Positions 5,596-27,892 of a stretch of DNA of 29,680 bases are shown here, piece by piece. Within the stretch, counting starts at the first letter, position 1; every line of letters begins with the position of its first letter. A model generated the notes under the pieces. It saw only the letters and a list, made by a program, of their open reading frames with translations. It was not told the DNA's origin and searched no databases. The DNA is from a virus: IMG/VR virus record IMGVR_UViG_3300037041_000765, positions 1 to 29,680 of that record; one strand, given 5' to 3'. Made by a program: the position numbers and the translations under genes.

Positions 5596-5650
5596 CAATG
5601 TAATGTAATGTAATGTATTCTAATGTAATGTATTGTATTGTATTGTAATG
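5596..5650. repeat. pentanucleotide tandem array (TAATG/TATTG)
   Basis: Eleven consecutive 5-bp units are read: CAATG, TAATG x3, TATTC, TAATG x2, TATTG x3, TAATG. Degenerate units (AATGTAAAGTAATGTAAGG) extend the pattern leftward to about 5520. It is AT-rich and easily melted. It could be a binding array, part of an origin or a slippage-prone microsatellite upstream of the 57-aa gene. Confidence 0.85.
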
Positions 5651-5678
5651 TAAACATGGGAGTGTCAACACGTTTGAA

Positions 5679-5957: not shown

Positions 5958-6050
5958 GTAGCGATTGTCCCCAATAAAAACGATTAGGGCGGAAATTTGT
6001 AAGTTATTGTTTTATAAAAGTATTATTTTTAAAGTATTAGGACGGTGAGA

Positions 6051-6518
6051 ATGGATATAGAAAAGGGCAAAGAAATCGCTGAAATTGAAGACCCAAGATG
6101 GGGAAGTGAGCCTAAGAATAATTTTAATCCTAAGACAGGGTTGTATAAGTACAAGCAGATCGCCAATCGTAATTGGGTTGTTCGTTGTCATAGGGTTAAG
6201 CGTAATGGGGAGCAATGTAATGTCGCTGCCAAGAGTGATTCACGTTCGCACCGCTGTCACTTTCATAGAGGTGGAGCAAGACCACTTATGCGAGGTAATA
6301 AGCATGCGATTAAGCATGGTAAGAAGACTGTAGCAAAAATCAAACAAGCGAGAGATGATAAGGTTATGATTAGTTATTTAGAAGATGCCTTGCGAATGTT
6401 GTTCACACCTGAGAAGTTACCAAAGAATGTACCCAACTCTCCGTTCAGACCTTTTAGAAGTGTTGAGAAGGCAATTGAATATCTTTACTCAATCGGCTAC
6501 GATGAGAGCCACTGGTAG
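6051..6518 (+). CDS. phage Cys/His (HGG-type) small protein
   Basis: The 155-aa product contains C...C...CHFHRGGARPLMRGNKHAIKHG (roughly residues 50-90). The cysteines in VVRCHRVKRNGEQC and the CHFH motif look like a zinc-binding knuckle followed by the glycine-rich, basic tail common to phage HGG proteins that sit near terminase or replication genes. A GTG at 6045 is in frame, but AGGACGG lies 5 nt before ATG 6051 and would overlap the GTG, so ATG is chosen. The C-terminal part is helical and ends IEYLYSIGYDESHW. A nucleic-acid-binding role is inferred. It converges with the hydrolase gene, with a two-base gap between stop codons. Confidence 0.65.
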   Translation: MDIEKGKEIAEIEDPRWGSEPKNNFNPKTGLYKYKQIANRNWVVRCHRVKRNGEQCNVAAKSDSRSHRCHFHRGGARPLMRGNKHAIKHGKKTVAKIKQARDDKVMISYLEDALRMLFTPEKLPKNVPNSPFRPFRSVEKAIEYLYSIGYDESHW

Positions 6519-6520
6519 GG

Positions 6521-6931
6521 TCATAGAGAAGACATTACGTAAAAGACATGCTGACCTATTACTTTTACCTTTTTGCCTCGTGAGTGAGGTTTTTTACCTG
6601 TATTCCAGGAATCGGCTTTGCCAATCAACTTATGCTTAGATGAGAACGATTTCACAGCGAGGGTTTTGAAGTAAGGTTGAAGCTTTAGCGGTATATGTTT
6701 ACGGGTAACACCTTTGATCTTACATGTAGATCGTTCTGATCGCTTTGCTCTATTGATTGAAGCATGGGCTACAGCTAATTTGCCAATCTCAGGCTCACCA
6801 CGAGCTTCAGCGTAGATGATGCTACTAAGGCATTGGATTTCTTTATTCGTTGCGTGGTGACGCTCAGCGTAGGCAGAATGAGTAGGAATGAGGATAAGTG
6901 TTGCGGATAAAGCGAGTGTTGGTAGATTCAT
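6521..6931 (-). CDS. SleB-like cell-wall hydrolase with signal peptide
   Basis: The 136-aa protein starts MNLPTLALSATLILIPTHSAYA, a Sec-type signal peptide with an Ala-x-Ala-like end. Then follow IIYAEARGEPEIGKLAVAHASINRA, the diagnostic core of SleB/hydrolase_2 peptidoglycan hydrolases with the catalytic-type Glu in AEARGE, and ADSWNTGKKPHSRG with FYVM near the end. I prefer ATG 6931 to the one at 6946, because GGGAAGA lies 7 nt before 6931 and nothing resembling a Shine-Dalgarno precedes 6946. It probably acts as the endolysin, exported by the host Sec system and cutting the cell wall at lysis. It lies far from the holin-like gene at 22.5 kb. Confidence 0.88.
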   Translation of the reverse strand: MNLPTLALSATLILIPTHSAYAERHHATNKEIQCLSSIIYAEARGEPEIGKLAVAHASINRAKRSERSTCKIKGVTRKHIPLKLQPYFKTLAVKSFSSKHKLIGKADSWNTGKKPHSRGKKVKVIGQHVFYVMSSL

Positions 6932-6962
6932 AAGTAATCTTCCCATAGTTAAGATGAAAAGA

Positions 6963-6990
6963 GGGTAACCTAAGCTGTCTTAAGTTACCC
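6963..6990 (-). terminator. hairpin terminator after the KilA-N gene
   Basis: GGGTAAC (6963-6969) pairs with GTTACCC (6984-6990), extended by TAAG/CTTA after one mismatch, around a CTGT loop. On the minus strand it is followed by TCTTTTC, a short U-rich run. It lies between the KilA-N gene and the hydrolase gene and would end the leftward transcript, or let part of it read through. Confidence 0.6.
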
Positions 6991-7019
6991 TTAAAGGCAC
7001 ACCCTTCAGAAGTGTTTGT

Positions 7020-7619
7020 TTAATTCTCTACAGCGGAATGAACTAAGTTATCAAACGTCATTGTCTTTGTTGTCTTGCATAGCAAGATCACATTGCGTTG
7101 AAGCCTATCTCTTTCCTTTAGTTGTTCTTCTGTTGCACTATTCCAGTCGACAACACCTACTGTTTCACGAATTAGATTTGCAGTATTGCTGTAAAACCAA
7201 TACTTAGCACCAATATTAAACTGTGCATCCAACGCTTCGTTCATAAGTTTGAATGAATTGCCAGAATCAATACGTTTTATTAGTAGTTGATCAGCCATCC
7301 ATTTATATATTTCAACTTTAAGTGACGGGCTAAGCCATAGTGCAAAGTCCATAGCTAAGAGTTTATGCCCCCATGTAACACCCGATCTACCTCTGGATGC
7401 TGATTTAACTGTTGTAATATTCTCAACAGACTTAAGAACTTCCATAAACTCTTGAGCTTCTGTGGTTGTAAAATAATCACTCAACTTTCTCTGAGTCAAA
7501 CCAGCCATGCTCCTAGCATTATTGCCAGCCAGTAATAAATCGTTCAATGAAATGAAATCGTCTTTAGTCCTTTGACGAACATCGTAACCGTTCAATTGTC
7601 TTAACATGATATAACCCAT
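7020..7619 (-). CDS. KilA-N domain protein
   Basis: The 199-aa product has a KilA-N DNA-binding domain over roughly residues 10-110. FISLNDLLLAGN and TQRKLSDYFTTTEAQEF come first, then SASRGRSGVTWGHKLLAMDFALWLSPSLKVEIYKWM, the characteristic domain end. The C-terminal half (about 115-199) is helical and unassigned. The start at 7619 has GGAG five bases upstream. KilA-N proteins are common in phages and large DNA viruses and bind nucleic acid; exact roles are rarely known. The Shine-Dalgarno lies immediately outside one arm of a 21-bp perfect inverted repeat (7630-7685) that also contains TATAAT, so tight control of this gene, possibly by its own product, is likely. Confidence 0.88.
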   Translation of the reverse strand: MGYIMLRQLNGYDVRQRTKDDFISLNDLLLAGNNARSMAGLTQRKLSDYFTTTEAQEFMEVLKSVENITTVKSASRGRSGVTWGHKLLAMDFALWLSPSLKVEIYKWMADQLLIKRIDSGNSFKLMNEALDAQFNIGAKYWFYSNTANLIRETVGVVDWNSATEEQLKERDRLQRNVILLCKTTKTMTFDNLVHSAVEN

Positions 7620-7629
7620 AATAACTCCA

Positions 7630-7685
7630 AATTGTATGCTTTAGAAAATACATATTATAATATATATTTTCTAAAGCATACAATT
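7630..7685. promoter_or_regulatory. 21-bp perfect inverted repeat containing a bidirectional promoter
   Basis: Positions 7630-7650 and 7665-7685 are exact reverse complements. The 14-bp centre contains ATTATAAT, itself palindromic. Each strand therefore reads TTGTAT, 18 nt, TATAAT. The left-facing copy would start the KilA-N mRNA a few bases upstream of its Shine-Dalgarno. A repressor dimer on the arms would cover both -35 boxes. Alternatively the RNA of any upstream transcript folds into a long hairpin next to the ribosome site. Confidence 0.8.
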
Positions 7686-7730
7686 AAAAAATTAGGTAAA
7701 GCCCGTCCCATCCACCATTGGTGGTTTGGA

Positions 7731-7967
7731 TCAATCGTCTAAAACATAATCCTCAGTCACTAAAATCCCATCACCTTTGTAAGTGATATAGATTTTAACC
7801 TCGTCGTTAACGATCTGGTAATACTGTGCAGTTCTGGTTATCAACTTACCTGACTCGGTCTTAAGTGTCACATGATCCTTACGACCGTACTGATCTAGAT
7901 AACACCATCGAGTGTTATTAACCAAAGGTATCTTTGTGAAGTGTTGTGTATTAATTATTGCAGTCAT
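7731..7967 (-). CDS. 78-aa ORFan, last gene of small-gene operon
   Basis: The protein starts MTAIINTQHFTKIPLVNNTRWCYLDQYG, is rich in beta-prone residues (YYQIVNDEVKIYITYKGDGI) and ends in acidic VLDD. Its start overlaps the upstream stop by four bases (ATGA). No family is recognised. After its stop a short dyad, CCACCAATGGTGG on the minus strand, followed some 25 nt later by TTTTTT, may weaken transcription into the KilA-N gene. As with its neighbours, small size, acidic character and tight coupling suggest an early accessory protein acting on the host. Confidence 0.7.
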   Translation of the reverse strand: MTAIINTQHFTKIPLVNNTRWCYLDQYGRKDHVTLKTESGKLITRTAQYYQIVNDEVKIYITYKGDGILVTEDYVLDD

Positions 7968-8185
7968 TTCTTTTTCCTTTTGTTTGCAAGTTCAGCTTCA
8001 AGTTCGGCTATGCGTTTCTCTAAGTCAGCCACATAGTTAATCGCTATGAGCAGGTGCGTACCGATCCTCCATGCCACAGCTCGGGACTTCAATCGTTTAC
8101 GCACGTCCTCATGGAAACAATTCGTATCTACCCAAGCCATAGCTTCGTCTATCGTTATTGATCGGTAGTCTTTTTCTTGTTTCAT
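7964..8185 (-). CDS. 73-aa helical ORFan with coiled-coil end
   Basis: The sequence begins MKQEKDYRSITIDEAMAWVDTNCF and ends with AINYVADLEKRIAELEAELANKRKKK, a clear heptad coiled coil with a basic tail (about residues 48-73). The gene is linked by four-base overlaps to the genes on both sides. A dimeric helical protein is likely. I do not recognise a family, and a DNA-binding role from the basic end is only a guess. Confidence 0.7.
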   Translation of the reverse strand: MKQEKDYRSITIDEAMAWVDTNCFHEDVRKRLKSRAVAWRIGTHLLIAINYVADLEKRIAELEAELANKRKKK

Positions 8186-8421
8186 TGTGATATATCCCCT
8201 TCTTGAAAGTTCTTACGATTAGTTGGTAACTCTAAGACCTCATAAATCTTGGACTCCATCTTACCTTTTGTACCGTTCGGGCTATCATCTACGATAAACA
8301 TGCCTGATCGGGTTTTGTGGATCGTAAACTTATCGCTATCCTGTTTACCTGTGCCGTAACCTAAGCCAAAACCAAAGACCATTGATAATGCTATTGTTGC
8401 TATTATGTTTTTTGTGTCCAT
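8182..8421 (-). CDS. 79-aa single-span membrane protein
   Basis: MDTKNIIATIALSMVFGFGLGYGTGKQ gives one hydrophobic helix (about residues 5-24) with glycine zippers. A soluble part of about 50 residues (SDKFTIHKTRSGMFIVDDS and on) follows. The segment could be an uncleaved anchor or a signal sequence. Starts and stops overlap with both neighbours (TAATG upstream, ATGA downstream). The function is unknown; membrane-anchored early proteins of this size in phages include superinfection-exclusion proteins, which is a possibility only. Confidence 0.7.
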   Translation of the reverse strand: MDTKNIIATIALSMVFGFGLGYGTGKQDSDKFTIHKTRSGMFIVDDSPNGTKGKMESKIYEVLELPTNRKNFQEGDISQ

Positions 8422-8690
8422 TAGTATGCTCCTAAGAAGTTTATTAATTCGTTATATGTTGCTTCGCTAATCTCTTTAACACCATCGCTGTAGGTCACAC
8501 AGCCATTCGCTTGTTCGTATAACCCTTCAGCGTGACCACACTCAAGAGCAGGATCATCTTCGCTGTACCATGTTGAGCATATCTCCCCAACTTTTAGATC
8601 AATCGTTTTATCGGTTGCTTTAACCAAGACACAGGTTCTAAACTCCATGTCCCGATAACTATCGATTATGCCTACAATGTAATGTTTCAT
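8421..8690 (-). CDS. 89-aa ORFan
   Basis: The protein starts MKHYIVGIIDSYRDMEFRTCVLVKAT and contains VGEICSTWYSEDD and AEGLYEQANGC, with four cysteines spread along it and an acidic composition. It looks like a small alpha/beta domain (strand IVGIID, strand CVLVKA). Four-base coupling to the upstream 50-aa gene and one-base overlap with the downstream membrane protein gene show co-translation. No family is recognised. Confidence 0.72.
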   Translation of the reverse strand: MKHYIVGIIDSYRDMEFRTCVLVKATDKTIDLKVGEICSTWYSEDDPALECGHAEGLYEQANGCVTYSDGVKEISEATYNELINFLGAY

Positions 8691-8839
8691 TTTAAATCCT
8701 CCAGCTCGTCATCACTCCAAGTGCTAAGGTAATCAAACATATCCTTAGCGTATGCTTTGATTATTTCTCGCAATGTCATCTCGTCTATCGTTTCAGTTAC
8801 GTATGCGATAATTAAGTCACTTCTTTGGTCTTCATTCAT
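8687..8839 (-). CDS. 50-aa acidic ORFan
   Basis: The leftward reading gives MNEDQRSDLIIAYVTETIDE and ends YLSTWSDDELEDLK. It is helical and strongly acidic. GGAGAG sits correctly before the ATG, inside the end of the preceding gene, and its TGA overlaps the next ATG by four bases. The ribosome site and the coupling at both ends make translation likely despite the size. Its function is unknown. Confidence 0.7.
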   Translation of the reverse strand: MNEDQRSDLIIAYVTETIDEMTLREIIKAYAKDMFDYLSTWSDDELEDLK

Positions 8840-8840
8840 T

Positions 8841-9122
8841 TTACTCTCCAGTTATATACTTAGGTCTAACACCATTTCTCAGCGTTATATGATGTGAACT
8901 AACGGTTTCATCGAACATGATTGGATGTGCTATTACCCACATCAAGTCGTCTTCATTCATTTGAATATTACAATCGACTCCAAAACCATCGAATGTTAAT
9001 AAGACAGTATCCCACAGCTCATAACCATCGTCTTTGAAGTTGTACTCCATAGCATCAATGCTTTTTAAAATCCTAGATTCGTTTTCTATTACAGCTTTAT
9101 CCCAATTATCAAACATGTTCAT
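8841..9122 (-). CDS. 93-aa acidic ORFan
   Basis: The protein begins MNMFDNWDKAVIENESRILKS and continues with DDGYELWDTVLLTFDGFGVDCNIQMNEDD, an alternating strand pattern, ending RPKYITGE. GGAG precedes the ATG by 7 nt and lies within the preceding gene, with which it overlaps by four bases. A later ATG (residue 3) is possible. It is an acidic, probably globular protein of unknown role in the same operon. Confidence 0.72.
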   Translation of the reverse strand: MNMFDNWDKAVIENESRILKSIDAMEYNFKDDGYELWDTVLLTFDGFGVDCNIQMNEDDLMWVIAHPIMFDETVSSHHITLRNGVRPKYITGE

Positions 9123-9265
9123 TGTATTTCTCCAGCTAGGTATTTACGGAAAACTTCCAAGCCTTCTTTATATAGCTCTTCAGCTTGTTCACAACGTAAT
9201 CGATGTTGACGTTGATCCCATACCTCAATGTCCTTATTTATCTCTTCCCATGTGCGTTCATTCAT
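9119..9265 (-). CDS. 48-aa helical ORFan
   Basis: The reading is MNERTWEEINKDIEVWDQRQ, then HRLRCEQAEELYKEGLEVFR and KYLAGEIQ, a continuous amphipathic helix. The start overlaps the upstream stop (ATGA at 9262-9265) and the TGA overlaps the next ATG (9119-9122). This double coupling supports a real gene. Possible dimerisation through the helix is inferred, and the function is unknown. Confidence 0.7.
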   Translation of the reverse strand: MNERTWEEINKDIEVWDQRQHRLRCEQAEELYKEGLEVFRKYLAGEIQ

Positions 9266-9597
9266 TTCAAATACCCTTCTCTAAAGTTTCTTAATATATA
9301 CATATAGTCCGCCAGATCGCCCCCTATATCGTCATAACTGGTATAAAATACTGCTGTTATTGTGCGATCCCTATCGTCTTCTATCCAATCAAACGTGACA
9401 TCAATCATGCCATCATCTGGTAACTCTAAAGTTGGATCTTCGACATACTCCCAAGCAGGTGTGCAGTAGACAGTTCTGTTTGTTTCCACTTCCCAGCACA
9501 CAGCTCCTGTATGCATGTCGATTGAGAAGTCCTCATCATGATCTACAATCCCCTTGATCAACAGATTGAGGTAATCTCTTTTATCTTTCGGTGTCAT
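9262..9597 (-). CDS. 111-aa highly acidic ORFan
   Basis: The sequence begins MTPKDKRDYLNLLIKGIVDHDED and carries long acidic stretches such as ELPDDGMIDVTFDWIEDDRD, giving a strongly negative protein of mixed strand and helix. Acidic phage early proteins sometimes mimic DNA (Ocr- or ArdA-type anti-restriction proteins); this is worth testing but cannot be claimed from sequence. TAGGAG lies 9 nt before the ATG. It is coupled to the 48-aa gene downstream. Confidence 0.75.
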   Translation of the reverse strand: MTPKDKRDYLNLLIKGIVDHDEDFSIDMHTGAVCWEVETNRTVYCTPAWEYVEDPTLELPDDGMIDVTFDWIEDDRDRTITAVFYTSYDDIGGDLADYMYILRNFREGYLK

Positions 9598-9614
9598 AAG
9601 TCTTAACTCCTAAG

Positions 9615-9863
9615 TTAATAATCAATCGCACAATTGCGACCGTCTTCGAGTTGGTCTTCGATATCGCCTATCGCATCATCGCTCAATACTGGTAGGATAT
9701 CGACATCGCCCAATTTAACGGCATATATTTCGTATACACCTGTAAAACCGTAGACCATATCAATACCGCTTGGTGCTTCGTATGTGAATGTAACCTGCAT
9801 GTCCACACCTGCGATAACGCAAGTTGTTTCTCTAGCGTCGTAAGGAATCGTGAAGGCACTCAT
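9615..9863 (-). CDS. 82-aa acidic ORFan
   Basis: I start this gene at ATG 9863 (MSAFTIPYDARETTCVIAGV). A GTG three codons earlier (9872) is in frame, but ATG 9863 overlaps the TGA of the upstream 29-aa gene by four bases, the same coupling used throughout the operon. The protein reads as a beta-rich domain (QVTFTYEAPSG, VYEIYAVKLG) with an acidic C-terminus (DDAIGDIEDQLEDG). No family is recognised. Confidence 0.72.
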   Translation of the reverse strand: MSAFTIPYDARETTCVIAGVDMQVTFTYEAPSGIDMVYGFTGVYEIYAVKLGDVDILPVLSDDAIGDIEDQLEDGRNCAIDY

Positions 9864-9949
9864 GACAGCCACACCAACACTTGACAGATCAATCGGATTG
9901 ATCCAATGAATAAGAAGCAGGATAAACCTGCTAAAACATATATTTTCAT
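9860..9949 (-). CDS. 29-aa single-span membrane peptide, first gene of operon
   Basis: MKIYVLAGLSCFLFIGSIRL is followed by ICQVLVWLS, almost entirely hydrophobic. An AAGGGG ribosome site lies about 8 nt upstream and the stop overlaps the next gene by ATGA. A 17-bp perfect dyad (9887-9903) sits inside it. It is the first reading frame after the operon promoter. It may be a membrane toxin-like or exclusion peptide, or act mainly as a translational entry point. Small size limits certainty. Confidence 0.5.
   Translation of the reverse strand: MKIYVLAGLSCFLFIGSIRLICQVLVWLS
9887..9903. promoter_or_regulatory. 17-bp perfect dyad in the operon's first gene
   Basis: GATCAATC (9887-9894) and GATTGATC (9896-9903) are exact reverse complements around one G. 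The arms contain ATCAATCG, close to the CAATCG core of the 13-bp array at 10065-10480. It is a possible intragenic operator or binding site for the same protein. Confidence 0.4.
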
Positions 9950-10000
9950 ATCATTCCCCTTGGGAGTTAATCGTTTTGAGCCAATCCCAAAACATGGTTT

Positions 10001-10030
10001 ATTTTAGATCATTTGTTTACACTATGTCAA
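10001..10030 (-). promoter_or_regulatory. strong sigma70-type promoter of the small-gene operon
   Basis: On the minus strand TTGACA (10025-10030, perfect consensus) and TAAAAT (10001-10006) are spaced by 18 nt, placing the start near 9993. The first gene begins at 9949. No terminator is seen before 7.7 kb, so the promoter can serve all the small genes. The -35 again lies in a TGTTGAC box. Confidence 0.75.
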
Positions 10031-10064
10031 CAATTATTTTCAATCGTTTTGAATTTATTTTAAT

Positions 10065-10480
10065 CGAATTACACAATCGAATTACACAATCGAATTACAC
10101 AATCGAATTACACAATCGAATCACACAATCGCTCTACACAATCGCTCTACACAATCGCTCTACACAATCGCTCTACACAATCGCTCTACACAATCGAATC
10201 ACACAATCGAATTACATAATCGCTCTACACAATCGCTCTACACAATCGCTCTACACAATCGAATTACACAATCGAATCACACAATCGCTCTACACAATCG
10301 CTCTACACAATCGCTCTACACAATCGCTCTACACAATCGCTCTACACAATCGCTCTACACAATCGAATCACACAATCGAATTACACAATCGCTCTACACA
10401 ATCGCTCTACACAATCGCTCTACACAATCGCTCTACACAATCGCTCTACACAATCGCTCTACACAATCGAATTACACAAT
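10065..10480. repeat. 32 x 13-bp tandem array with three unit variants
   Basis: Exactly 32 units of 13 bp fill the interval. Every unit except number 12 (ACATAAT) ends ACACAAT and starts CG; the variable part is AATT (A), AATC (B) or CTCT (C). The order is AAAAB, C5, BA, C3, AB, C6, BA, C6, A. Degenerate units (CAATCGTTTTGAA) precede it. The array sits between the terminator of the GP88-like operon and the promoter of the small-gene operon, in DNA that should not be transcribed, which points to a cis-acting protein-binding or replication element. A long forward reading frame across it is a by-product of the stop-free unit. Confidence 0.95.
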
Positions 10481-10485
10481 CTCAA

Positions 10486-10518
10486 AACAAAAAAAAGGAC
10501 TATATAAAATAGTCCTTT
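10486..10518 (-). terminator. Rho-independent terminator of the GP88-like operon
   Basis: A 10-bp perfect stem (10494-10503 with 10509-10518) closes a 5-nt loop and is followed, on the minus strand, by seven T (10487-10493 as A on the plus strand). It lies 23 bases past the stop codon of the leftward gene at 10541-11287. Confidence 0.9.
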
Positions 10519-10540
10519 GGTAAATAGGTTTTACCCTCTA

Positions 10541-11287
10541 TTAAGCACCTAAAGCTAGTGGTATAAATCGACTCTTAAGCGAGCCATGAACAATGATAAC
10601 TGGATCCCCTTTATTTGTACCGACACCACCTGAGCAAGCTTTACACTCTACACAAGTTAGCCGTTTATTTTGTTCGGCACTCGCTGGACATTCGAACTCA
10701 TTTTTTAAAATTGGCTCATTGGCTGACCGTACTCTAAATGTCCTATATTTTAATAATTTAGCTTTTATTCTATCTTGCTCATTATCGGAGCTTGCCATAC
10801 ATAGATCCATGACATGGTCAGCTTTGCCTGATTGCCATTGATGTGTATAGCCTAGGTGACCTTTAGCATTGGTCAGTAATAAGTCCCACACATGACGGGG
10901 AACACTCGCTGGATCGCCGTATGTGCCAAGTCTTACCATTTTACCCGATACGGGATCATTTACGCTCGGATCATAAACGGGATAATTGCCTTTTAATAAG
11001 CTCTTATAGACCATTGTTACGCCTTGACCAACGTTAACATAACATGATCCATTGAGACCTCTGCGATGTGGACATTGCCCACATATACTGACATCACCTA
11101 GACTTTTAAGGTTTTCGAGGGGACTTTGGCCATTGTCAGCGAGTATATAAGTCTGGACAACGTCCCCTGTTTTAACATTACTGGATCGCTTAGTAATAGC
11201 TATTACTACGATCGGTTTGCTATCTAATAAGCTATTGCCACGATATAACACATAGCCTGTAGCATGTTTTTTTGTTTTAGTAGTCAT
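10541..11287 (-). CDS. GP88-like Cys-rich phage protein
   Basis: The 248-aa protein has a CGQCPHRRGLNGSCYVNVGQG motif (about residues 69-89) and a second cluster, ECPASAEQNKRLTCVECKACSGG, near the C-terminus. Between them RLGTYGDPASVPRHVWDLLL and GYTHQW are conserved-looking. This pattern matches the phage family called gene product 88 (GP88), whose biochemical role I do not know. The paired cysteine clusters suggest metal binding. AAGGTG lies 8 nt before the ATG. It follows two small genes in a leftward operon with its own promoter (11742-11772) and a strong terminator (10486-10518). Family recognition is from memory of the motif. Confidence 0.8.
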   Translation of the reverse strand: MTTKTKKHATGYVLYRGNSLLDSKPIVVIAITKRSSNVKTGDVVQTYILADNGQSPLENLKSLGDVSICGQCPHRRGLNGSCYVNVGQGVTMVYKSLLKGNYPVYDPSVNDPVSGKMVRLGTYGDPASVPRHVWDLLLTNAKGHLGYTHQWQSGKADHVMDLCMASSDNEQDRIKAKLLKYRTFRVRSANEPILKNEFECPASAEQNKRLTCVECKACSGGVGTNKGDPVIIVHGSLKSRFIPLALGA

Positions 11288-11918: not shown

Positions 11919-11937
11919 AGATAACTAGATAATAACC

Positions 11938-12058
11938 CTATATAAATCAATAACTTAAAAATGCCCATAGCTACACGATAATGACATAAGGCAAGCCGTA
12001 GTATTACTTTATTATTATCGTGTCTTATATCGCAAATATAAGTAATTGATTTATATAG
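11938..12058. repeat. nested inverted repeats (14-bp outer, 10-bp inner)
   Basis: The outer arms 11938-11951 and 12045-12058 match over 14 bp; the inner arms 11973-11982 and 12014-12023 match over 10 bp (ACACGATAAT). A 7-bp hairpin (12024-12030 with 12036-12042) sits beside the inner arm. The 121-bp unit can fold as a branched cruciform or RNA. ATAACCCTAT (11932-11941) also pairs with ATAGGGTTAT (12081-12090). Confidence 0.85.
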
Positions 12059-12064
12059 CCTTTT

Positions 12065-12143
12065 GCTTATAGCCTATGTTATAGGGTTATAAGTCTATAT
12101 ATGATAGCTTATCGCTATCATCGGTTTGCTATGGGCTATAAGC
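12065..12143. repeat. second nested inverted repeat (10-bp outer, 8-bp inner)
   Basis: GCTTATAGCC (12065-12074) pairs with GGCTATAAGC (12134-12143). Inside, ATGATAGC (12101-12108) pairs with GCTATCAT (12114-12121) around TTATC, and CCTAT/ATAGG (12073-12077, 12081-12085) offers an alternative. Confidence 0.8.
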
Positions 12144-12421
12144 TATCGGTTTGAGTATGTTTGCGTTCTAGGACTATCTGTTTATTTAAATTTGCTGTAG
12201 GCGTAGAACCTAGACCCCCATGCCCCCAATTTTATAGCAACGAGCCTGGCTCTATTCACTACTATTACGCACAGCCAAATTCCATTTTTCAAAAAATATA
12301 TTCCACACAGCCAAACCCCCCTATGTCTTTATATTTCATAGACAAAAAAAATTTTATATTGTAAATTTTAAAAAAGCATGTTACAAATGCTAAACAAACT
12401 ACAACCTAACCTGTAGACAGA

Positions 12422-12925
12422 ATGGCAAGACACATCGATTCCGAAGCAATTGACGTTATTTTTGACGAGAAAGATAAGTCAAAAGTAATATACATGAGCG
12501 ACCCTCATGGAAATAACCCACCGTTACTTACAGAACAAGCGGCGCTAGAGTCTTTACTTTCGCGCTATGACTATCAGCTTATAAACTCTACCAATAAAAT
12601 GCGCCAATTCATTTTGGCAAAACTTTTTAGATTGGCAGATGAATCCGAAGACGAAAAAACCGCGCTCAAAGCATTAGAGACACTTGGCCGTGTCACCGAG
12701 ATTGGCTTATTTACAACTAAGATCGAAGTATCTGTGGCCGACAAACCAACAACGGACCTAGAGTCTGAACTCAGGGGCCTATTAAAGAACTACGCCAAGA
12801 CTGAAAAGCAGGTGGTAGAAGAGCTCACTGATGAAGAACTGCGTGGCTATGCCGAAGATGAGGTAGAGGATGAAGAAGAGTATGAAGAAGAGTATGAAGA
12901 AGAGTACACGGATGAGGATGAATGA
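12422..12925 (+). CDS. terS: probable terminase small subunit
   Basis: The 167-aa protein directly precedes and overlaps (ATGA) the large terminase. Residues of about 38-95 are helical (ALESLLSRYDYQLINSTNKM, then DEKTALKALETLGRVTEI), fitting the DNA-binding and oligomerisation core of small terminases, which recognise the packaging site. The C-terminus is a run of Glu, Asp and Tyr with an EEYEEEYEEEY repeat (about 148-163), unusual and possibly a large-subunit contact. Only a weak ribosome site precedes the ATG. The assignment rests on position and helix pattern, not on a clear family motif. Confidence 0.65.
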   Translation: MARHIDSEAIDVIFDEKDKSKVIYMSDPHGNNPPLLTEQAALESLLSRYDYQLINSTNKMRQFILAKLFRLADESEDEKTALKALETLGRVTEIGLFTTKIEVSVADKPTTDLESELRGLLKNYAKTEKQVVEELTDEELRGYAEDEVEDEEEYEEEYEEEYTDEDE

Positions 12926-14454
12926 GCGATCATTTAGGTGATATCTCTTTAGACGAAGACTTTCTTACTGCAGCACTTGCAGCTGCGCCTGTTAGTGAAA
13001 GAGCAAAGCTTATTGAGTTGATTGATGAGTTACGCAGGCGCCATGAGCGCGAATTTGCGCAGGAGAATTTCTTAGCCTTTGTGCAAAAGGTATGGCCCGG
13101 ATTTATTTATGGGCGCCACCATGCCAGAATGGCACAAGAATTTGAGAAAGTGGTTAACGGCAAGAATAAGCGGCTAATTATTAACCTTGGTCCTCGGCAC
13201 ACTAAGTCCGAGTTTGGGTCGTATTTGTTACCTGCGTGGTTTCTTGGTAAGTACCCTGATAAAAAGATCATACAATGCTCGCACACAGCCGAACTTGCTG
13301 TAGGTTTTGGTCGTAAGGTCCGTAACTTAGTGGCTAATCCGCTCTATCAGGAAGTGTTTCCTGGTGTGGAGCTGCAGACTGACTCTAAAGCTGCGGGTAG
13401 ATGGAACACCAGCGCGGGTGGTAACTACTTTGCGATCGGTGTCGGTGGTGCTGTAACTGGTATTGGTGCAGACATACTCATCATTGATGATCCACACTCA
13501 GAACAAGAGGCTGCAATAGCTGCAAGTAACCCTGAGATCTATGATAAGGTGTACGAGTGGTACACATCAGGTCCAAGACAGCGATTACAGCCGGGCGGGG
13601 CCATAATTATAGTCCAAACCCGATGGTCGAAACGGGACCTTACGGGCCAAGTTAGGCAAAAAGAGTTAAACGGGGGTGGGGACAAGTGGCGAGTAGTAGA
13701 ATTACCTGCCATTTTGCCTTCTGGTAAGCCATTATGGCCTGAGTTTTGGACAATAGAGGAGTTAGAGGCTACTAGAAACGCCATTGATGTCTCAAAATGG
13801 CAAGCTCAGTACCAACAAAACCCAACTTCTGAAGAAGGGGCTATAGTAAAACGAGAATGGTGGAAGAAATGGGAGAATGAGTCCCCACCACCTACTGATT
13901 TTATACTACAAACGTGGGATACTGCGTTTGAAAAACACAATAGAGCAGACTATTCGGCGTGTATTACGTGGGGAGTGTTCTATCATGCTGATGAAAATGG
14001 GGTCACACAAGCCAATATCATCATGTTAGATGCCAAACGTGACCGTATGGAGTTTCCTAGGCTCAAGGAAGAGGTACTGGACGAGTATAAGTACTGGCAA
14101 CCCGATGCGTTGATCATAGAGAAAAAAGCGTCTGGCGCCCCTTTAATTTACGAATTACGAGCAATGGGTGTTCCAGTATCAGAATTTACTCCTACTCGTG
14201 GTAATGATAAGATATCTAGACTAAATGCCGTAGCCGATGTATTTGCATCAGGTCGAGTATGGGTTCCAAACACACGTTGGGCAGATGAGGTTATAGAAGA
14301 GGTTGCATCATTCCCTGCGGGTCAACATGACGACTATGTTGACTGTGTATCAATGGGAATCTCTCGATTTAGGAAAGGTGGGTTTCTAAGTTTGCGCTTA
14401 GACTCTGACGATATGAATGATTACTTTGTAGGAAAACGCGCAGCGTATTATTAA
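12922..14454 (+). CDS. terL: terminase large subunit (ATPase and nuclease)
   Basis: The 510-aa packaging motor carries Walker A GPRHTKSE (90-97), Walker B DILIIDDPH (184-192) and coupling motif QTRW (232-235). The C-terminal RNase H-like nuclease shows D333 in LQTWDTAFE, E400 in DALIIEKKASG and D470/D471 in AGQHDDYVDC, the three acidic clusters expected. The protein pumps DNA into the prohead through the portal and cuts the concatemer. The Walker A loop has HTKS where many terminases carry HGKS, a variant I associate with environmental phages. The start overlaps the upstream stop by four bases. Confidence 0.95.
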   Translation: MSDHLGDISLDEDFLTAALAAAPVSERAKLIELIDELRRRHEREFAQENFLAFVQKVWPGFIYGRHHARMAQEFEKVVNGKNKRLIINLGPRHTKSEFGSYLLPAWFLGKYPDKKIIQCSHTAELAVGFGRKVRNLVANPLYQEVFPGVELQTDSKAAGRWNTSAGGNYFAIGVGGAVTGIGADILIIDDPHSEQEAAIAASNPEIYDKVYEWYTSGPRQRLQPGGAIIIVQTRWSKRDLTGQVRQKELNGGGDKWRVVELPAILPSGKPLWPEFWTIEELEATRNAIDVSKWQAQYQQNPTSEEGAIVKREWWKKWENESPPPTDFILQTWDTAFEKHNRADYSACITWGVFYHADENGVTQANIIMLDAKRDRMEFPRLKEEVLDEYKYWQPDALIIEKKASGAPLIYELRAMGVPVSEFTPTRGNDKISRLNAVADVFASGRVWVPNTRWADEVIEEVASFPAGQHDDYVDCVSMGISRFRKGGFLSLRLDSDDMNDYFVGKRAAYY

Positions 14455-26131: not shown

Positions 26132-27892
26132 ATGACAACAATTAAAGTATCAGAATTGCCCATAGTAACTACACCGTATGATGGTAGTGAATACACACTG
26201 GGTATTCAAAATGGAGCGTCTGTAAAGGTCCCCGCATTAAATTTAGCTGCGGCCACTGGTGCTTCATTAATTGGAACAACCCCTTCCGGCACATTAGCTG
26301 CATCTACGGTGGCTGCATCTTTATCTGAATTAGACACAGAAAAAGCATCAACAGCTGCACTTAGTTCAGGATTAGCCCTTAAGGCTGATACATCTACAGT
26401 TGATTCACAATTAACCCTTAAAACAAATATAACTGATTTATCAGCCTCCACAGGCTCAACTCTAGTCGGTACAATTCAATCAGGCACAGGCGCAGTTACT
26501 CGTACAGTAGCGTCTAAGCTAAATGACACAGTTTCAGTTAAAGATTTTGGTGCTGTAGGTGATGGTGTTACGAATGATACTGTGGCTATACAAGCAGCTT
26601 TAAATAGTGGCTATAGCATTAAGTTACCAAAAGGCAATTATAAAACAAGCGCACCATTAACTATATCCACTTCGGGCGCAATGTTTTATGGTGAGACTGG
26701 AGCGCAAATTACAAAATCAGGGGCTTATGATGCGATTGTCATAACTGCGTTTAACTGGTCTTTAGATCACATTGTAGTAAACTGTAATGGCTTTGGTGGA
26801 TCAGGGATTGGCATTAAAGGTGGCAATAATCTGGTATCGTTTTGCGAGGTTTATGGTAGCACTGGAGTGGCTAACGCTCATGGTATTTATTTGGATGGCA
26901 CAGCTTCGGTCTGTATTTACAATAGAATAGTCGGTAATTGGGTGCACCAAGTGGGCGGTGTAGGTATTGCGTCAAATACTGCTCCTGACAATGTAAGGAC
27001 TGAAAACGTAATCTATCAATCAGGTTTAGAGGGCATTACTGACGACTTGCCAAGTTATAGGTCAATTATTGCTAATAATTATATTGGTGCTGCATGTCAA
27101 GCGGGTGGTGTAGGCGGTATAGGTATCGACCAAGCTTCTGACGGCACAGTGACTGGAAATATTATTAATGGAACAGGCAGTAATTTACCGGCCATAAAAA
27201 CTCAAAATAATGTTGGAAGCTCTAACTTTTTAACCCTTACAGGAAATACGCTTACTAATAATTCTGGCGGCGGTATTTGGTTGTCTACAAACGGTGCATA
27301 TACATCAAATAATAATGTGGTATCAAGCAACACCTTTCAAAATAATACCAGCTTTGATATTAAAATCGATTTAAATAGCGCACAAAACACCGTGTCATCC
27401 AACGGGGTTAATGCGGTTATTATTGATGCAAATCTAGCGGGGGTTAATCCAAAATTAGGTATTCGAAGCAATTTTAGAGCGTACTTACTGGGTAGTATTG
27501 CAAATGCAACGGGCGACGGTACTCTTGTGCAGGTGCCATTTGCTAATACTACCTTTAACAATGGCGGTAATTTTAATGCTTTAACATATACATTTACCGC
27601 ACCTGTTACGGCGTTATATCAGGCTAATGCGGGGGTAAGGTTGCAATCTGGGACAGGCGGGACTTTTGCACAATTACAAATTATACAATCAGGTAGTTTG
27701 TCCCAAACCGCACAAGCTGAAATTGATATTTCAGCAACATCTTCATCTTATAACTTGTGCGTTTCAGACATCTTTCCAATGGCAAAAGGTGATACTTTGC
27801 TTTGCAAAACAGTAGTGGGAGGTGGTACAAAATCTTATGCGATCAATGGGTCGACATCAACCACTTATTTTTCATGTTCACAGGTAGGGTGA
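26132..27892 (+). CDS. tailspike with pectate-lyase-type beta-helix
   Basis: The 586-aa protein carries an N-terminal virion-attachment part (MTTIKVSELPIVTTPYDGSE), a linker helix region (about 60-130), then SVKDFGAVGDGVTNDT (135-150), the hallmark start of the pectate-lyase-3/beta-helix fold. Asn/Gly-rich rungs follow to about residue 445 (VTGNIINGTG, LTGNTLTNNSGGGIWL). The last 130 residues (TFTAPVTALYQANAGVRLQS) look like a C1q/TNF-type jelly-roll that trimerises the spike. It should bind or degrade host surface polysaccharide and set host range. The catalytic residues cannot be placed. Confidence 0.88.
   Translation: MTTIKVSELPIVTTPYDGSEYTLGIQNGASVKVPALNLAAATGASLIGTTPSGTLAASTVAASLSELDTEKASTAALSSGLALKADTSTVDSQLTLKTNITDLSASTGSTLVGTIQSGTGAVTRTVASKLNDTVSVKDFGAVGDGVTNDTVAIQAALNSGYSIKLPKGNYKTSAPLTISTSGAMFYGETGAQITKSGAYDAIVITAFNWSLDHIVVNCNGFGGSGIGIKGGNNLVSFCEVYGSTGVANAHGIYLDGTASVCIYNRIVGNWVHQVGGVGIASNTAPDNVRTENVIYQSGLEGITDDLPSYRSIIANNYIGAACQAGGVGGIGIDQASDGTVTGNIINGTGSNLPAIKTQNNVGSSNFLTLTGNTLTNNSGGGIWLSTNGAYTSNNNVVSSNTFQNNTSFDIKIDLNSAQNTVSSNGVNAVIIDANLAGVNPKLGIRSNFRAYLLGSIANATGDGTLVQVPFANTTFNNGGNFNALTYTFTAPVTALYQANAGVRLQSGTGGTFAQLQIIQSGSLSQTAQAEIDISATSSSYNLCVSDIFPMAKGDTLLCKTVVGGGTKSYAINGSTSTTYFSCSQVG

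Follow-up and report, generated by a model that had tools for sequence, protein, structure and literature searches.

The window analysed here (the whole stretch of DNA examined, 29.7 kb; IMG/VR record IMGVR_UViG_3300037041_000765) is a fragment of an uncultivated lytic-type tailed phage, the relatives of which have genomes of ~60–66 kb. Terminase, portal, and structural genes are encoded rightward, and genes for an exonuclease (DUF2800), a KilA-N protein, and small proteins are encoded leftward; a primase-helicase containing PriCT_2 and DUF5906 is also present. The closest cultured relatives are HTVC023P-type pelagiphages and similar phages of 58–65 kb, with a TerL identity of ~50%. A contig search for host or prophage copies yielded only six distant TerL relatives (58–64%), which reside in MAGs of mixed phyla and contain no array of the type described below, and thus no host was assigned.

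Two intergenic sites are described, namely site A, the terminator-to-promoter gap that contains a tandem array in the window, and site B, which extends from a leftward promoter to the terS leader. The features of the region are as follows.

9615–9872, minus strand: 85-aa protein with no assigned function, downstream of the array and promoter
9973–9993, minus strand: leader hairpin GTTTTGGG-ATTGG-CTCAAAAC, kept after this promoter in relatives
10001–10030, minus strand: near-consensus sigma70-type promoter (TTGACA-18-TAAAAT), leftward, adjoining the array downstream and kept in relatives
10031–10064, minus strand: AT-rich spacer with CGATT motifs, from the array to the -35 box; the conserved edge at which the differing arrays of relatives start
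10065–10480, no strand: site A, tandem array of 32 × 13 bp
10494–10518, minus strand: intrinsic terminator of the leftward gene 11287–10541; the array begins just past its T-tract
10541–11287, minus strand: 248-aa protein (PHROG 2554) with no assigned function, upstream of the terminator
11935–12070, no strand: long imperfect palindrome at site B, ~110 nt (RNA fold z of -5.5, plus strand)
12264–12325, plus strand: 36-bp element TATTnCGCACAGCCAAATTCCATTTTTCAAAAAATA in about two imperfect copies, just upstream of terS
12422–12925, plus strand: 167-aa gene upstream of terL, taken as the terminase small subunit (terS) by position and used as the reference point for site B
12922–14454, plus strand: terminase large subunit (terL)

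Structure and setting of the 13-bp array

The array consists of 32 head-to-tail 13-bp units in unbroken phase and in three variants (AATTACACAATCG, AATCACACAATCG, and CTCTACACAATCG), with the variant tetramers AATT (A), AATC (B), and CTCT (C). The core, ACACAATCG, starts at 10071, 10084, and so on to 10474 at a constant spacing of 13 bp and has no occurrence elsewhere in the window. The copies are almost free of point mutations; one A unit contains ACAT in place of ACAC (10214), and the final unit ends in T. With a TRF score of 578 (period 13, 31.7 copies), this is by far the strongest array of the window. Unit phasing and TRF bore out the preliminary description, in which 32 units of 13 bp were given in the order A4 B C5 B A C3 A B C6 B A C6 A. 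In that description, the pairs AB and BA were taken to separate the C-runs. The order itself stands, but a simpler reading is AAA + (A B C5 B A C3) + (A B C6 B A C6) + A, in which one block of 14–16 units appears to have been duplicated, the C-runs then differing. The proposal that the array grew by block duplication is therefore supported, as the order comprises two versions of one block. A coding role was rejected because the 13-bp unit shifts the reading frame and the sole long ORF across the array is mechanical. An Rfam search gave no match.

The terminator (10518–10494) and promoter (10030–10001) both face leftward, and the array was thus correctly placed between a terminator and a promoter of the same direction, in DNA that apparently has no need to be transcribed. 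PHROG and Pfam searches gave no function for the genes flanking the array. Immediately after the promoter, a hydrophobic peptide of ~29 aa (MKIYVLAGLSCFLFIGSIRLICQVLVWLS; 9860–9949, minus strand), which is absent from ORF lists set at 60 aa, has close counterparts in four relatives (L137, L138, L139, and L141). The terminator-side gene beside the array (window 10541–11287; L009 6601–7293; L184 and L141) is swapped among relatives, and additional genes are present on the promoter side, suggesting a gene-exchange junction at the array. The pentamer AATCG on the plus strand (CGATT on the coding strand), which forms the core of both the 13-mer and the promoter flank, seems more frequent in the leftward gene block (6000–10600) than elsewhere in the window. 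A third noncoding array, AATGT × 11 (5597–5653), is located in a long gap near the primase-helicase gene. Imperfect tandem repeats of ~300 bp in three copies, probably coding, were found in G006 (10187–11095) and G001 (26829–27684).

Arrays at sites A and B in related phages

The promoter flank of site A (promoter, leader hairpin, and CGATT-containing AT-rich spacer) is conserved across relatives, whereas the content beyond it differs completely. The 13-mer array recurs at this locus in G001, G002, and G026, and G025 contains about one such unit; the others have different units or none. G024 and G003 contain CGATAGG × 5 followed by GGCTCT × 19–21, G006 contains GGCTCT × 31 and GGCTCAA × 8, and G028 contains the same types in other copy numbers. 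In G006, the CGATT spacer has been lost as well, only the promoter and leader being in common. L184 and L139 have no array at site A, which, as far as presence or absence of the array is concerned, speaks against the functional array envisaged in the preliminary description. Over 46,858 bp, G024 and G003 show 0 mismatches and differ by a single 12-bp gap, corresponding to two 6-bp GGCTCT units in the site-A array, although this difference lies between metagenome assemblies, presumably short-read, and could be an assembly effect. G001 and G026, contigs of one metagenome, have a 523-bp end in common at 100% identity and both stop inside the 13-mer array at their other ends; they jointly span ~65.8 kb, with the array as one of the two assembly break points.

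Site B contains an array in most relatives, the terS-proximal end of which is usually located 310–510 bp from the terS start. The unit lengths are 6, 7, 8, 10, 11, 14, 15, 18, or 27 bp, and the sequences are unrelated. Such arrays were found in 11 of the 17 relatives that combine a TerL identity of at least 75% with upstream DNA of 1 kb or more, but in 2 of the 41 with an identity of 63–70%. Close relatives without an array at site B exist, and L184 lacks an array here as well as at site A. In the window and its closest relatives, site B is instead occupied by a long palindrome and the 36-bp element. The palindrome at 11935–12070, for which no Rfam match was found, is kept in L010, L183, L184, and L012, and its arms are retained in L017; many other relatives have a tandem array in that place. 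The 36-bp element occurs in tandem in L183 (× 2.9; 1141–1243) and as a 39-bp version in L017 (× 4.2; 9220–9382). This 36–39-bp element (TATTnCGCnCAGCCAAATTCCATTTTTCAAAAAATA), present in two to four tandem copies, is a better candidate than the arrays for a terS-linked recognition or control site.

The comparison between G024 and G025 (a partial genome of 23.8 kb) is the most direct. The two are 97% identical, with TerS (156/156) and a Cro-like protein 100% identical and the primase-helicase 98% identical, yet their arrays are unrelated at both sites. At site B, G024 contains TCACAGGC × 16, whereas G025 contains AACGGCTCAACGCTC × 10 and TATCTG × 17, and the right flank is identical at 362 of 375 positions. 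The TATCTG × 17 tract of G025 occupies the place of an unexpanded CTATCTATATTTGTATATC in G003 and shows the de novo, in-place birth of an array from local sequence.

The units at site B have one property in common. GCT on the terS-sense strand is present in 16 of the 23 units (arrays L183–L218) versus 4.4 expected from shuffling, suggesting that the units are not random sequence; no 3-mer reached this level in 4000 shuffles, and 13 of 17 units contained GCT after the 11-mer family had been collapsed, although the units are in part related to one another and the test was made post hoc. A general strand bias of site B was rejected as the cause because array-free relatives show no such bias, and the enrichment thus belongs to the arrays. 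This strand-biased core is the main unexplained lead towards a putative secondary role.

A probable hypervariable minisatellite and its alternatives

We consider the chances slightly better than even that the array represents a minisatellite (VNTR), noncoding and hypervariable, of a type that is born and lost in unconstrained spacers between regulatory signals. These compact genomes retain a small number of such noncoding spacers, and in seven genomes noncoding arrays were essentially confined to such gaps. At sites A and B, short local sequences have been repeatedly amplified head-to-tail, copy numbers have changed, and arrays have been replaced or are absent, while the flanking signals are kept. 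As in a VNTR, the tandem units are near-perfect, copy number differs between otherwise identical assemblies, and alleles with one or no unit exist (G025 and L184), although the copy numbers are uncertain because all sequences are metagenome assemblies, presumably short-read. The array-free relatives show that neither array is indispensable; together with the in-place birth of an array, they suggest that the arrays expand and contract by replication slippage or recombination between repeats in unconstrained spacer DNA. Arrays would be tolerated in places free of sequence constraint from either transcript or promoter, and their units would have no conserved sequence-specific job. The lack of a sequence-specific role is the weaker of these two inferences, and the array may act indirectly, by spacing or insulating the operons on either side. 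Against the minisatellite reading, arrays recur at two fixed places and are absent from some long gaps, such as one of 800 bp in G010 and G012, and the GCT bias of the site-B units likewise counts against it.

The preliminary description proposed a specific DNA-binding job (iterons, a packaging site, a decoy, or a scaffold). This is not supported, since the units of relatives differ in sequence and period or are reduced to one or none, and an identical TerS and a 98% identical primase-helicase coexist with unrelated arrays. Helical phasing of every fourth unit fails likewise, as the periods in relatives range from 6 to 27 bp. An iteron-type replication origin, in which an initiator would bind lineage-specific units and melt the adjoining AT-rich DNA, is unlikely. 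The tandem units, the AT-rich neighbour, the intergenic location near divergent operons, the GCT core of most site-B units, and the encoded primase-helicase are all consistent with it, and an enzyme of the PriCT_2/DUF5906 type acts on repeated sites in phage P4. However, the arrays of G024 and G025 do not follow their near-identical primase-helicases, G010 and G012 have site-B arrays without a detectable relative of this primase, L184 is arrayless at both sites, and the GC skew, suggested earlier as a means of locating the origin, tracks gene strand and marks no clear origin. It is similarly doubtful that sites A and B are one fast-evolving functional element in which a conserved protein recognises a short strand-oriented core, e.g. 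GCT(C/A), while the units turn over freely. The recogniser would be, for example, a primase or some other initiator encoded beyond the region that was compared; almost any tandem repeat with that core could then serve, and the element would persist.

A packaging or concatemer-processing element, with a job like that of the short repeats beside the T7 terminal repeat or of cosB/pac by the small terminase gene, has a still slimmer chance. The distance of 310–510 bp between site-B arrays and terS in most relatives, the 13-bp spacing shared with the T7 left-end repeats, and the clustering of contig ends near site B (19 of 71 fall 750–1250 bp upstream of terL) point in this direction, but the repeats are not constrained when TerS is constant, close relatives are arrayless at site B, and the window array is ~1.9 kb from terS with genes between. 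Moreover, the window and G024 assemble straight through, and thus the site is not a fixed physical end, and assembler breaks account for part of the cluster: several contigs have a terminus within an array, across ~80–160 bp of perfect repeats, as expected if short-read assemblers break there. A regulatory role, in which copy number would tune the early leftward promoter via a bound regulator or upstream DNA structure, is improbable. The array ends ~35 bp upstream of the near-consensus -35 box and shares CGATT motifs with the promoter flank, whereas the promoter is conserved even where the upstream arrays are unrelated or absent, and site-B arrays are farther from promoters. That the array is a collapsed or invented repeat is very improbable, although it comes from a metagenome assembly and several contigs stop within arrays of this kind. 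Independent contigs contain the same 13-mer array in the same place, and the unit variants make the window array resolvable by a short-read assembler, the longest exact internal repeat being 101 bp, such that only the exact copy number is doubtful; pure arrays in relatives exceed 101 bp and break contigs.

Comparison with known repeats and significance

The closest known look-alike is the set of CCTAAAG heptamer repeats near the left end of T7, named SRL and SRR. In the T7 record, CCTAAAG cores are located at 175–239 and 267–332, mostly 13 bp apart, and they resemble the present array in having a short core, a spacing of 12–13 bp, and a noncoding location near early promoters. The T7 repeats adjoin the terminal repeat, are imperfect, and number ~12 copies, whereas the units described here are near-perfect, unconserved among close relatives, and internal between two operons. 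IMG/VR assigns these contigs to no class of end repeat. Iteron origins (iteron plasmids, SaPI/PICI, and P4 ori/crr) likewise have tandem short units beside AT-rich DNA; here, no co-varying initiator was found when the primase-helicase and TerS were compared, and array-free relatives exist. The cosB/pac sites near small terminase genes resemble the site-B arrays in lying upstream of terS, but an identical TerS is found here with different repeats and the window array lies elsewhere. Like the present arrays, bacterial and eukaryotic VNTRs or minisatellites consist of head-to-tail units, vary in copy number between genomes that are otherwise identical, and show block duplications and concerted homogeneity; the present arrays differ in occupying fixed intergenic places in compact phage genomes and in the replacement of the unit itself between close relatives.

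The locus is best classed as a minisatellite, and what is new about it is the fixed position together with the complete turnover of the unit in a phage clade. To our knowledge, phages have not commonly been reported to contain hypervariable tandem arrays at fixed intergenic positions, and a search of the open-access literature found no fitting phage report. The arrays account for the repeated breaks at one and the same point in assemblies of these phages and provide a natural VNTR marker by which phage strains could be told apart in metagenomes. They also make the birth and death of minisatellites readable in compact genomes in which nearly all else is coding, and, if the GCT core proves functional, they would represent a conserved element with an unconserved sequence.
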